NCBI GenBank assembly: GCA_000995415.1
Contig: LCEX01000004.1
Coordinates: forward strand, 1-53,127
Direction of reading: 5' to 3'
DNA length: 53,127 nucleotides
Origin: Candidatus Gottesmanbacteria bacterium GW2011_GWC1_43_10
GTDB lineage: Bacteria > Patescibacteriota > Microgenomatia > UBA10105
Below are positions 104 through 52,624 of the stretch, piece after piece (position 1 is the stretch's first letter; the number at the start of each line of letters is the position of its first letter). A program made the position numbers and the translations under genes. The notes under the pieces were generated by a model. It did no database searches. It was not told the DNA's origin and saw only the letters and a program-made list of their open reading frames with translations.

Positions 104-255
104 GTTACGAAATGAAGTTAACTTCCGGATTATAGTTTCCTCCTCTTCAGAAGAGGAGGTTAGGAGGAGTTGCTTAAAAGCAACTAACTCACCCTAACCC
201 TCTCTTACGAAGAGAGGGAACCAATAATCCAAAACTTGGATTATCATTTCGTAAC
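104..255. repeat. 152-bp palindromic element, copy A
   Basis: The element is bounded by a perfect 12-bp inverted repeat (GTTACGAAATGA ... TCATTTCGTAAC). Inside lie GGATTAT/ATAATCC arms and two hairpins of opposite bias, CCTCCTCTTC-AGAAGAGGAGG and CCCTCTCTTACGAAGAGAGGG. Each hairpin carries a tail (TTAGGAGGAGTT and AACTCACCCTAA). It contains no ORF. A second copy of exactly the same length lies in the same orientation at 52473-52624. It resembles a non-autonomous mobile repeat. The rest of 1-302 shows only the possible gene end at 1-98. Confidence 0.85.
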
Positions 256-3095: not shown

Positions 3096-3890
3096 TTAGG
3101 TCTCCCATGGCGCCGGTCGGGTATGGGCCAATTCATTTAAGTGTTCCATGTCACGGTAAGTATCCAGACAATGCCAAAAACCGGTATGCCGAAAGTAACT
3201 TAACTCTTTGTCCCGGGCCAGTTTTTCCAAAGGCTCGCGTTCAAAAGTGCAACTGTCGCTATTTGTGACATAGCGAAAAATTTTCTTATTAAATACAAAA
3301 AATCCGCCATTGATGATCACGTCTTTGGACTGCGGTTTTTCGGAAAATTTTTTGACAACTGCTCTTTCATAAATCAACTCGCCAAATCGCGGATAAGGAT
3401 GGACTCCGGTGACCGTACCGATTTTGCCATGTTGTTTATGGAATTGAAGTAGTTGTTTGAGGTTGATATTGGCTACCCCATCTCCGTATGTCAACATAAA
3501 AAAATCCGTATCAATGTATTTTTCCACCCGCTTCAAACGGGCACCAGTCATCGCGTTTTGGCCGGTGTCGACCAATGTCACTTTCCAGGGCGGATTATCC
3601 TTAAGATGTGGGTACGCCGTCACGCCACCGGATTTGATATCAATTTCTACATCGTTATTTGTACTTAAATAATTTAGGAAATACTGCCGGATCATCTCGC
3701 CTTTGTATCCCAAACATAAAATAAAATCAGTCAGGCCGTACTTTTCATAGCGCTTCATGATGTGCCAGAGGATGGGCTTGCCGCAGATTTCAACCAGAGG
3801 TTTAGGGCGGAACTCGGTTTCTTCACGCAGACGATAGCCTTTGCCACCACAAAAAATGATCACTTTTATTGGAAGCGGAGGATTACTCAT
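3096..3890 (-). CDS. rfbF: Glucose-1-phosphate cytidylyltransferase
   Basis: This enzyme makes CDP-glucose from CTP and glucose-1-phosphate, the first step of CDP-linked deoxysugar synthesis. The nucleotidyltransferase signature is clear at the N-terminus: VIIFCGGKGYRLREET followed by RPKPLVEICGKPILWHIM. It is followed by LGYKGEMIRQYF and a metal-site YGDGVANIN. Length 264 aa fits RfbF (about 257). The gene overlaps the upstream GT2 by 8 bp and precedes the epimerase by 3 bp. No typical CDP-glucose 4,6-dehydratase is obvious in the window unless the adjacent epimerase plays that part. Confidence 0.9.
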   Translation of the reverse strand: MSNPPLPIKVIIFCGGKGYRLREETEFRPKPLVEICGKPILWHIMKRYEKYGLTDFILCLGYKGEMIRQYFLNYLSTNNDVEIDIKSGGVTAYPHLKDNPPWKVTLVDTGQNAMTGARLKRVEKYIDTDFFMLTYGDGVANINLKQLLQFHKQHGKIGTVTGVHPYPRFGELIYERAVVKKFSEKPQSKDVIINGGFFVFNKKIFRYVTNSDSCTFEREPLEKLARDKELSYFRHTGFWHCLDTYRDMEHLNELAHTRPAPWET

Positions 3891-4581
3891 TGTAAATTAG
3901 GGTTTTGATACGGTACCACAATAAATTCCGCAGAAATTCCCATAAGGTTACTCCTTTTACATAAGAATTTCCACTTTGGCGCCGGAAAAATCGGATTGGG
4001 ATTTCTTTGACCAGGTAATTCCCGGTTGAGGCCTTGAGCATCAGTTCGGCATCAATAAACCAATCATCTGCAGTTAAATCAAGTTTTTCGAAAAGCGCGC
4101 GTTTAAATATTTTGGGCGTCCCGTTTACGTCACGAATTTGGATTTGAAACAGTGAGCGGAAAAGCTGGTTATAAATTTGGGAAATGACTTTTCGTTTTAA
4201 ACCATCATACCGAGTCTTGCGCCACACTTTCACCAAATCTAGTTTAGGGTGGCGCCTGATTTCCCGAATAAGCTTGACCAAATCTTGGGGGTCAATCTGG
4301 CCGTCACCACACATATAACCGACGTACGGAGTTTTAGCTTGCACAAGACCTTGGCGGATTCCGTGTCCATAACCGCGGTTTTTGAGGACTGTTATCGCTC
4401 GAATATTATTATATTTTTGGGTGAGTTTACGGATCAAAAAACCTGTTCGGTCACGTGAGCCGTTATTTACTAATATGAATTGTAATGTGATTTTGGCCTG
4501 GCGAGCAGCTTTAACTAGACCGGTCACTACATCGATGACGCAGGCTTCTTCGTTATAGAAAGGAATTACCAGGCTAAACAT
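3883..4581 (-). CDS. DPM1-like GT2 glycosyltransferase
   Basis: A compact family 2 glycosyltransferase of 232 aa. It starts directly in the fold with FSLVIPFYNEEACVIDVV and continues to LVNNGSRDRTG and the DGQIDPQDL acidic motif (DxD region). This layout is typical of dolichol/undecaprenyl-phosphate mannosyl- or glucosyltransferases, which load a sugar onto a lipid carrier for extracytoplasmic transferases. No C-terminal membrane segments are visible. It overlaps the upstream membrane transferase gene by 8 bp, and the pairing fits: this enzyme would make the lipid-linked sugar donor and the neighbour would use it. Confidence 0.85.
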   Translation of the reverse strand: MFSLVIPFYNEEACVIDVVTGLVKAARQAKITLQFILVNNGSRDRTGFLIRKLTQKYNNIRAITVLKNRGYGHGIRQGLVQAKTPYVGYMCGDGQIDPQDLVKLIREIRRHPKLDLVKVWRKTRYDGLKRKVISQIYNQLFRSLFQIQIRDVNGTPKIFKRALFEKLDLTADDWFIDAELMLKASTGNYLVKEIPIRFFRRQSGNSYVKGVTLWEFLRNLLWYRIKTLIYNE

Positions 4582-5899: not shown

Positions 5900-5957
5900 G
5901 TTTTTGGGATTTACGGAAGCAATTTGTTTTCCGGTTATTATACATGAGTTTTGACAG

Positions 5958-5972
5958 GTGTCACGTTGACAC
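5958..5972. promoter_or_regulatory. Short perfect dyad in a divergent intergenic region
   Basis: GTGTCA-CGT-TGACAC is a perfect 6-bp inverted repeat with a 3-bp centre. It sits between the divergently transcribed membrane transferase (start 5899) and UDP-sugar dehydrogenase (start 6019). A TTGACA lies just upstream at about 5951-5956. It could be an operator for both polysaccharide transcription units. No regulator gene is adjacent, so this is only a candidate. Confidence 0.35.
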
Positions 5973-6018
5973 GGGATTTCATGTTGTGGCAAAATGAGGC
6001 ACAGTAATTTTAAACATA

Positions 6019-7362
6019 ATGATGAAACGCAAAAAACTACCGACTATATCTGTTGTAGGTTTAGGTAAACTCGGCACACCATTTTTGGTGACCGTAGCCT
6101 CTCGAGGATATCAAGTGATTGGGGTTGATCTTAACCCAAATACTATTCAAAACCTAAATGACGGTAAGTCAAATTCAGTCGAATCAAAACTCGCGCTATT
6201 ATTAAAGCAGTATCACGCCCGGATCCGGGCAACCGCGAGTTTTGCGGAGGCGATTTTAAATTCAGAACTGACATTTATTATTGTGCCTACTCCCAGTACT
6301 AGTAATGGCTCGTTTTCTCCGAAGCACGTTGCAGCCGCCTTAAAAAATATCGGTCAAGTACTGCGTCAGAAATCGCAACCCCATGTGATAGCGATTGTGA
6401 GTACTCTATCTCCCGGATCTTTGGCGCAGGTTTTAGCGCCAATATTGGAAAAAAGCAGCGGCAAAAAGATCGGGAAAAATTTTGGTTTGTGTTACAACCC
6501 GTCATTTATCGCTTTAGGCAATGTGATAAATAATCTGCTCAAACCGGACTTTGTTCTGATTGGGGAATCGGACCAAAAATCCGGAGATATTCTGGAAAAA
6601 TTTTACCGCCGGGTCTGTCTAAATCAACCACCAATAAAACGTATGCAGCCGATCAATGCCGAAATAACAAAAATAGCTCTGAACACTTTTATTACAACCA
6701 AAATTTCCTTTGCCAATATGCTGGCGCAACTTTGCGAGCGGGTGCCCGGCGCTGATAGTTTGGAAGTGACACAGGCATTAGGTCTTGATAGTCGGATTGG
6801 GAGTAAGTATTTACTGGGCTCCGTCCCTTATGGCGGACCGTGTTTTCCCCGTGATAACCGGGCACTCCGGGCTTTTGGCAAAAAAAACAGAATGACATTG
6901 GGTCTTCCCCGGGAGACTGATGTGATCAATCAATCCCAAATAGCTGCGATCGCCAGGTTGGTTGAGATATCGACTCCACCCAAAAATAAAATTGGGGTCA
7001 TCGGGTTGGCTTATAAACCAGAGACTGATGTAGTCGACGAATCTGTCGGAATCAACCTGGCCAACTATTTGGCGCACAAAAAATGCGCGGTTTCCGTTTA
7101 TGATCCTCTAGCTTTGGAAAATGCCCGTCGGATATTGGATCCCCGCATCGCCTACGCCACTAGTTTAACTGCTCTTGTAAATAGTTGTAAGACTTTGATA
7201 GTGACTACGGCTTGGTTAATGATAAAATATGAGCTGCCAAAATTGTTGACAAAAAATAACAGAAGATCAATAATAATTATTGATTGTTGGCGGATTTTCG
7301 ATCATGCTGATCTTCCAAATCATGTGACTTACATCGGCCGAGGTCAATATATCCGGGCCTAA
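6019..7362 (+). CDS. UDP-glucose/GDP-mannose-type nucleotide-sugar 6-dehydrogenase
   Basis: This enzyme oxidises the C6 hydroxyl of a UDP- or GDP-sugar to a uronic acid using two NAD+, giving acidic sugars for surface glycans. The N-terminal NAD-binding motif is ISVVGLGKLGTP. The central helix with AEITKIALNTF and the catalytic-cysteine segment YGGPCFPRDNRAL (Cys275) are intact. The C-terminal UDP-binding domain contains GVIGLAYKPETDVVDES. Length 447 aa is normal. The gene is divergent from the leftward operon and precedes a second epimerase gene by 14 bp, which could act on its product. Sequence alone does not decide between UDP-glucose, UDP-HexNAc and GDP-mannose. Confidence 0.9.
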   Translation: MMKRKKLPTISVVGLGKLGTPFLVTVASRGYQVIGVDLNPNTIQNLNDGKSNSVESKLALLLKQYHARIRATASFAEAILNSELTFIIVPTPSTSNGSFSPKHVAAALKNIGQVLRQKSQPHVIAIVSTLSPGSLAQVLAPILEKSSGKKIGKNFGLCYNPSFIALGNVINNLLKPDFVLIGESDQKSGDILEKFYRRVCLNQPPIKRMQPINAEITKIALNTFITTKISFANMLAQLCERVPGADSLEVTQALGLDSRIGSKYLLGSVPYGGPCFPRDNRALRAFGKKNRMTLGLPRETDVINQSQIAAIARLVEISTPPKNKIGVIGLAYKPETDVVDESVGINLANYLAHKKCAVSVYDPLALENARRILDPRIAYATSLTALVNSCKTLIVTTAWLMIKYELPKLLTKNNRRSIIIIDCWRIFDHADLPNHVTYIGRGQYIRA

Positions 7363-27993: not shown

Positions 27994-28007
27994 TTTGAAA
28001 AAAATTT

Positions 28008-28040
28008 CCCCCTCTTTTTTGAAAGAGGGGGTAGGGGGTG
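28008..28040. repeat. Left hairpin of the DUF559 unit
   Basis: CCCCCTCTTT-TTTG-AAAGAGGGGG forms a perfect 10-bp stem, followed by the tail TAGGGGGTG. The tail ends 9 bp before the ATG of the DUF559 gene. Hairpin plus purine tail matches the design of the right-hand hairpin in inverted orientation. Confidence 0.75.
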
Positions 28041-28049
28041 TTAATTTGA

Positions 28050-28442
28050 ATGACTCGCATATTTAACAAACCCGAACTTGAAAAATATAGATCTAGGCTA
28101 CGAAATAACCAAACCGATGCTGAACGTAAACTTTGGTCAAAACTTAGAAAGAGGCAATTCTTTGGTCATAGATTCGTTCGTCAATTTAGCATCGGTAAAT
28201 TTATAGTAGATTTTTACAGTCCGCAGTTAAGAGTAGCAATTGAACTCGATGGTGGACAACATAATTCTGATCAAAACAAGTTTTACGACCAAAAGAGAAG
28301 TGATTATTTGAAAAGTTTAGGAATAAGAGTAGTGAGGTTTTGGGATAATGAACTGCTAAATAATATGGAGGGTGTCCTGGAAAAGCTTACAGAACATATA
28401 ACCCCTCCTCACCTCCCCTTTCCTAAAAGGGGAGGAAAATAA
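28050..28442 (+). CDS. DUF559 (Vsr-like) endonuclease
   Basis: A small nuclease-like protein of 130 aa of the DUF559 family, related to very-short-patch repair and PD-(D/E)XK-type endonucleases. The core is LRNNQTDAERKLWSKLRKRQ, then FVRQFSIGKFIVDFY, then the catalytic-type VAIELDGGQH, and VVRFWDNELLNN at the end; its fold and family match is clear. The last dozen codons (TPPHLPFPKRGGK) are encoded by the right-hand palindrome, so gene and repeats form one unit. No methyltransferase or partner gene lies next to it. Target and physiological role are unknown; a function in spreading the repeat is my hypothesis. Confidence 0.88.
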   Translation: MTRIFNKPELEKYRSRLRNNQTDAERKLWSKLRKRQFFGHRFVRQFSIGKFIVDFYSPQLRVAIELDGGQHNSDQNKFYDQKRSDYLKSLGIRVVRFWDNELLNNMEGVLEKLTEHITPPHLPFPKRGGK

Positions 28443-28498
28443 CACAACATTTTGTAAAAGAAGGTCACCTCCTTTTTTTGAAAGAGGGAGAAGGAGGT
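28401..28498. repeat. Right hairpins of the DUF559 unit
   Basis: CCTCCCCTTT...AAAGGGGAGG (28412-28435) with the preceding ACCCCTCCTCA tail is the inverted counterpart of the left hairpin. It overlaps the 3' end of the DUF559 gene. A further similar structure (CACCTCC, a T run, GAAAGAGGGAG, AAGGAGGT) at 28466-28498 sits just before the acs start and shares the left copy's orientation. Confidence 0.7.
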
Positions 28499-28511
28499 AT
28501 TAAGAATTATC

Positions 28512-52472: not shown

Positions 52473-52624
52473 ATTACGAAATGAAGTTAACTTCCGGATT
52501 ATTATTTCCTCCTCTTCTTAAGAGGAGGTCAGGAGGAGTTAGATAGAATGACTAACTCACCCTCACCCCTCTCTTACGAAGAGAGGGAATCTATAATCCA
52601 AAACTTAGATTTTCATTTCGTAAC
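52473..52624. repeat. 152-bp palindromic element, copy B
   Basis: Same length, order and outer ends as 104-255 (ATTACGAAATGA ... TCATTTCGTAAC), with the same two opposite hairpins and purine tails (AGGAGGAGTTAG / CTAACTCACC). It lies in direct orientation to copy A about 52.4 kb away. No ORF inside. Before it, 52372-52472 holds only simple AT-rich sequence with no gene seen. Confidence 0.85.

Follow-up and report, generated by a model that had tools for sequence, protein, structure and literature searches.

The window analyzed in this work is a stretch of 53,127 nucleotides from Candidatus Gottesmanbacteria bacterium GW2011_GWC1_43_10 (assembly GCA_000995415.1, contig LCEX01000004.1), which corresponds to contig C4 of a draft genome of 1.416 Mb in 56 contigs, and it carries a gene for a DUF559 nuclease enclosed by two inverted hairpins. 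This locus is best explained, with a probability of about 0.68, as a discrete, horizontally moving element organized as hairpin and tail, DUF559 nuclease gene, and inverted tail and hairpin, whose triplex-motif (TM) ends would be recognized by the dedicated nuclease, and whose non-autonomous members or remnants would be the geneless hairpin pairs found in the same genome.

Inverted hairpins enclose DUF559 genes in diverse phyla

The gene (28050-28442, + strand, 130 aa) matched the Pfam family PF04480 with an E-value of 2e-33. Upstream lies the left-end hairpin CCCCCTCTTT-TTTG-AAAGAGGGGG (28008-28031, + strand), with a perfect stem of 10 bp and a loop of 4 nt (0 expected by dinucleotide shuffling), continued by the G-rich tail TAGGGGGTGTTAA (28032-28044, + strand), the whole left unit covering 28008-28044. 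This tail is a mirror copy of AAAGAGGGGG, the purine arm, in which T faces A, and it is a candidate third strand for a triplex of the purine motif. At the other end, a tail reading TGAGGAGGGGTTA on the - strand (28399-28411), mirror of the arm AAAGGGGAGG, lies within the final codons of the gene, followed by the inverted right-end hairpin (28412-28435, - strand), also with a perfect 10-bp stem (whole right unit, 28399-28435). The first-pass annotation of the window, made from its sequence, had already described these structures. Its hairpin before the gene is real, but the spacing of 9 bp assigned to it has to be corrected, since 18 nt lie between the hairpin and the ATG, and it is the tail that is about 9 away. 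The inverted counterpart does write the last codons, encoding the C-terminal residues HLPFPKRGGK, beyond the folded domain (predicted local distance difference test, pLDDT, of 49 there in the structural model), and the third hairpin exists as a hairpin-tail unit (28467-28503, + strand) oriented like the left one and 74% identical to it, but degenerate, with an imperfect stem. Hairpins with a pyrimidine left arm and a purine right arm (Y/R) and stems of at least 8 bp numbered six in the window, all of them from the DUF559 locus or from two geneless 152-bp elements, whereas none appeared in any of 10 dinucleotide shuffles of the window; hairpins of the opposite type (R/Y) with such stems were absent from the window.

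A search with PF04480 yielded six DUF559 genes in this genome, all six bracketed by Y/R hairpins with inward tails. In order to evaluate these flanks beyond one genome, 84,980 species genomes were scanned and 80 DUF559 loci were chosen by similarity to this genome's copies, spanning Nitrospirota, Thermodesulfobacteriota, Pseudomonadota, Bacteroidota, Planctomycetota, Chloroflexota, Cyanobacteriota, candidate phyla and others. The density of Y/R hairpins around the 80 genes was 5.08 per kb within 150 bp, 0.60 per kb at 150-300 bp and 0.07-0.14 per kb beyond, and no R/Y hairpin was found within 1 kb of them. A strict hairpin with a perfect stem was present upstream in 61 of 78 loci, downstream in 57 and on both sides in 47, while only 0.05% of random windows of the same size from the same contigs had strict hairpins on both sides. 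When a class-wide set was chosen by PF04480 score alone, most strong matches had hairpins, and distant DUF559 proteins (e.g. loci L011 and L012) had none. The recurrence of flanking hairpins anticipated in the first-pass annotation was thus borne out in all six genes of this genome and in most of the 80 loci, in many phyla; of the observations that it had named as evidence against its proposal, none applied to close homologues, and homologues without such flanks occurred among the distant ones. In one locus (L188, G451:C13), two near-identical DUF559 copies were arranged in tandem with a period of 565 bp and hairpins at 1690, 2255 and 2820, as if neighboring copies shared one end, with one hairpin per period.

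The ends correspond to BoxC/PIT/TM repeats

The flanking palindromes have the Y/R arms, stems of about 8-10 bp and small loops of BoxC/PIT/TM repeats, and their tails mirror the purine arm, as in the arm AAGAGGGGG with tail GGGGGTGTT or GGGGGAGTT, and in the arm/tail pairs AAGGGGAGG/GGAGGGGTT, AAGGAGGGG/GGGGTGGT and GGGAGAGGG/GGGTGAGGG. Over 154 units, the fit of the tail to its own arm was 0.756, versus 0.652 for swapped arms (sd 0.0076; maximum of 0.676 in 2000 swaps), and the outer flank showed no such fit (0.611). Arm and tail therefore covary as expected of a tail able to pair with its own hairpin, and the tail is predicted to supply the third strand in a triplex of the purine motif, with G on G-C and T or A on A-T. 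On sequence grounds, the palindromes flanking DUF559 are BoxC/PIT/TM repeats and no new family.

TM repeats are intergenic and occur in hundreds of bacterial genomes, with 23 in E. coli K-12, some of them in inverted A/B pairs; they have been tied to genome instability, and triplex formation in vitro was shown for an E. coli TM sequence (Holder et al. 2015, PMC4666352, citing Hoyne et al. 2000). According to the same authors, mobility genes were never found near TM repeats and their mobility was unexplained (PMC4666352). In K-12, TM number 9 (1,351,204-1,351,239) is separated by about 170 bp from ycjD, the E. coli DUF559 gene; in the main text of Holder et al., ycjD, DUF and nucleases go unmentioned (PMC4666352). 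A survey of repetitive extragenic palindromic (REP) sequences mentions neither BoxC nor triplexes (PMC3733652). The first-pass annotation regarded the palindromic system as undescribed, which does not hold for the repeats, already known (PMC4666352), and does hold for their association with DUF559, for which no paper was found in the open-access literature, subscription papers being outside the search. Within that literature, what is new is the link, each part being already known separately.

A discrete unit that crosses phyla

As foreseen in the first-pass annotation, an empty orthologous site was found in relatives: the genes flanking the window element are adjacent in genomes G001, G015, G017 and G009, and about 16 nt apart in G001. 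The sharp ends that it also expected were observed, DNA similarity between phyla ending within about 0-25 bp of the outer hairpins (L037/L044, L044/L052 and L031/L052). The alignment of L037 (Nitrospirota) with L044 (Thermodesulfobacteriota) spans 5924-6360, with hairpins at 5928-5951 and 6340-6360, and that of L031 with L052 spans 3593-4020, with hairpins at 3594-3616 and 4001-4023. Measured from hairpin to hairpin in the 39 loci that have both ends, the unit was 414-760 bp long (median 442), and no conserved outer sequence was present beyond the hairpins. The inverted hairpin-tail ends constitute terminal inverted repeats, and the only family encoded in the element is PF04480, with no DDE transposase.

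Placed on the DUF559 tree, which rests on a short protein and has many unresolved forks, the four palindrome types (I-IV) required 10 changes versus 23.9 with shuffled labels; when labels were shuffled within phyla, the mean was 20.8 changes (minimum of 15) versus 9 observed. The same tree needs 20 changes of phylum. Palindrome type on this tree tracks the nuclease, not the host phylum, and the comparisons show, at the sequence level, a unit that crosses phyla and in which nuclease and palindrome co-diversify. The pair L065/L071 was considered as a case of recent transfer and rejected because its flanks are likewise 94% identical.

TM units co-occur with DUF559 genes

TM units were detected with a 33-nt covariance model of hairpin plus tail, and DUF559 genomes were defined by a PF04480 match with E<1e-10. 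In a class sample, 28 of 31 DUF559 genomes were TM-positive versus 17 of 202 others (p=3e-21), and in a phylum sample, overlapping in part with the former, 58 of 60 versus 29 of 226 (p=5e-36), both p-values ignoring relatedness. Among the matches listed, the mean TM count was 12.8 in DUF559 genomes versus 0.55 in the others, approximately 23-fold. The restriction of geneless units to DUF559 genomes, suggested in the first-pass annotation, therefore holds as a strong tendency, with 17 and 29 exceptions, a few of them rich in TMs.

The DUF559 enzyme

Eleven positions were invariant among DUF559 proteins, E25, D54, E65, D67, H71, D80 and R96 among them. The AlphaFold2 model of the window protein (pLDDT of 87) had as best folds 3hrl, the catalytic domain of the homing endonuclease I-Bth0305I, and Vsr. 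Modeling thus shows a predicted Vsr/homing-endonuclease fold with conserved active-site residues, as in the Vsr-fold homing endonucleases. The NCBIfam Vsr match was below cut-off, and searches against anti-phage libraries gave weak partial matches at most, with weak profile matches to restriction and defense nucleases. The Caulobacter DUF559 protein VsrA is needed for a DNA-damage response in vivo; it was proposed to act in very-short-patch (VSP) repair and causes DNA damage when its methyltransferase is absent (PMC12907096). Since VsrA damages DNA in vivo, DUF559 members are likely to be active nucleases by analogy, and a VSP role is possible for the distant DUF559 proteins.

Geneless elements in this genome and TM units in E. 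coli

The geneless 152-bp elements of the window (104-255 and 52473-52624, the second with 88% identity to the first) share the hairpin and tail plan recognized in the first-pass annotation and, in addition, possess an outer terminal repeat, GTTACGAAATGA..TCATTTCGTAAC, that encloses the tails-in hairpin pair. In the first element, the left hairpin (139-159, + strand) is followed by the tail TTAGGAGGAGTTG, and the right hairpin (198-218, - strand) is preceded by the tail CAACTAACTCACCCTAA. Several further near-full-length copies occur in the genome, and, as single-stranded DNA, the geneless unit folded into three hairpins (z=-6.7). In 399 kb of this genome there were 42 Y/R hairpins versus 1 R/Y, most of the former having tails and being arranged as inverted pairs, some tails-in and others back-to-back. 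One of the six DUF559 copies (L002, G000:C11:2489-2806) has an in-frame stop and is adjoined by further TM units, so this genome also holds a decayed element. A second palindrome, similar to CCTGCCTGCCGGCAGGCAGG, was observed in this genome within or beside TM units, where it seems to be nested (L001 at about 1860-1885, L105 at 18390, L112 at 3786 and L179 at 5950).

In E. coli, TM pairs at hrpB-mrcB (L126) and alx-sstT (L127) varied in presence and absence and included single-hairpin remnants, with blurred boundaries. In the remnants, one hairpin would have been lost exactly, together with both tails of the pair; in the opposite polarity, the pair may have grown from one hairpin. Both loci were set aside as proof of insertion because of the blurred boundaries and because insertion and deletion were not polarized. 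Between tktB and ypfG, some strains carried a TM unit and others, including K-12, a REP-like sequence (GCCGGATGCGAC..) (L118, L186 and L187 versus L183, L184 and L185). The ycjD segment between fabI and sapF (L115, L116) was lacking in about 2,000 of 5,400 E. coli genomes, and this locus was rejected as an empty site because the strains inspected without ycjD carry TetR regulator and resistance-nodulation-division (RND) efflux genes instead. This site variation (presence and absence, remnants, exchange with REP-like sequences) is compatible with mobility and falls short of proof.

Discussion

The presence of DUF559 inside a mobile unit with BoxC/PIT/TM ends makes the enzyme a good candidate for spreading those repeats. 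In the mechanism envisaged, the element ends would become single-stranded during replication or repair and adopt a hairpin-triplex form. In the manner of a homing endonuclease, the Vsr-fold nuclease would then nick or cut at the folded or duplex TM end or at a target, and host repair would copy the element into the break, in cis, and geneless pairs in trans. Cleavage at the hairpins, the triplex as the recognized form and the copying route are what we infer for this process.

The main rival, which we regard as unlikely, is homing and not transposition: TM pairs would spread otherwise, and DUF559 would recognize a pair, cut between its tails and insert its own gene, a geneless pair being the empty homing site. 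After 3hrl, the closest fold is indeed that of I-Bth0305I, the gene always lies between two inward tails, where a geneless pair has about 30-40 bp, and genomes with TMs and no DUF559 exist. However, homing leaves unexplained the dispersal of near-identical geneless copies to unrelated sites and the TM excess in DUF559 genomes, and the relatives compared at the window locus lack the whole unit, not the gene alone. A further rival, held to be very improbable, sees in DUF559 an enzyme of Vsr-type repair or of a restriction-like kind, as the role proposed for VsrA, the DNA damage that it causes and the weak profile matches to restriction and defense nucleases might suggest, and in the hairpins transcription or RNA features or chance neighbors of an intergenic gene: the hairpin enrichment is about 50-fold, limited to 150 bp, on both sides and inverted, the tails are mirrors, co-diversification extends across phyla, DNA similarity ends at the hairpins, and no Rfam family matched at a credible score, none being near its gathering score. 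The least probable alternative, a Y1 transposase (RAYT/IS200-type) that moves the palindromes in trans with DUF559 as cargo, could draw on the 4 Y1 genes of this genome and on the analogous palindromes moved by RAYTs (PMC3116915, PMC8266576), but Y1 (PF01797) was not associated with TMs (33 of 45 TM genomes versus 124 of 188 others, p=0.38), the TM-rich genomes G088 (18) and G217 (16) have no Y1 gene, and palindrome type follows the DUF559 tree.

Several observations weigh against a self-moving DUF559 element. A convincing target-site duplication was absent in the 39 loci, where matched bases showed a weak excess (2.49 vs. 1.97; 5 of 500 shuffles as high), and the protein lacks a transposase-type strand-transfer domain. 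The co-occurrence statistics ignore phylogeny, and, with 80 loci selected for their resemblance to the DUF559 copies of this genome, the claim covers a short stand-alone DUF559 clade and not all PF04480. No stable triplex was found in vivo by Holder et al. (PMC4666352). In E. coli, ycjD stays at a single place in one copy, and the TMs differ mostly by loss or exchange. Finally, genomes G256, G124 and G360 have at least 22, 23 and 16 TMs, respectively, and no PF04480 match. In these genomes the nuclease may have been lost, or another enzyme may have taken its place and serve the TMs, or the TMs may not need it. The TM units of these genomes (L162-L166 in G256, L172-L174 in G124 and L167-L171 in G360) were mostly single or back-to-back, with tails out.

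Beyond the window locus, the element would probably belong to a hitherto unrecognized, phylum-crossing class of mobile elements whose intrastrand-triplex hairpins are spread by a PD-(D/E)XK/Vsr-fold endonuclease, and by no transposase, with the BoxC/PIT/TM repeats found in E. coli and in many other bacteria as non-autonomous members or fossils. DUF559, including E. coli YcjD, is thereby named as a candidate mover for these repeats, and the defined ends make their origin and mobility testable. If true, the RAYT-REP plan would have arisen twice independently, the second time around a nuclease of another fold, with recognition probably directed at a DNA triplex.

Comparison with known systems

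YcjD/PRK09767 and Caulobacter VsrA belong to the same protein family as the window DUF559, and no element context has been described for them. The EDxHD/Vsr-fold homing endonucleases, such as I-Bth0305I (PDB 3r3p), share the fold and a nuclease gene within a mobile unit. I-Bth0305I is located in a phage intron; here, in contrast, there is no intron, the ends are small and palindromic, and geneless relatives exist in the same genome. With the BoxC/PIT/TM repeats, the likeness lies in the hairpin and mirror purine tail, the inverted A/B pairs and the intergenic position, and the difference in that the hairpins are here the ends of a nuclease-bearing element. The closest parallel in organization is offered by REP/REPIN sequences and RAYT (TnpA-REP, REPtron), where the enzyme gene also lies between inverted palindromes that are dispersed as geneless pairs too, and where enzyme gene and palindromes co-evolve (PMC3116915, PMC8266576). 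This comparison, drawn in the first-pass annotation, stands as an analogy, with no Y1 transposase involved: the gene between the hairpins belongs to PF04480 and is not a Y1 HUH transposase, and in place of a GTAG/CGTC tag the tails are G-runs such as TTAGGGTGAGTT. A REPtron thus combines a HUH Y1 enzyme with GTAG-tagged palindromes, whereas the element described here combines a predicted Vsr-fold nuclease with triplex-motif palindromes.
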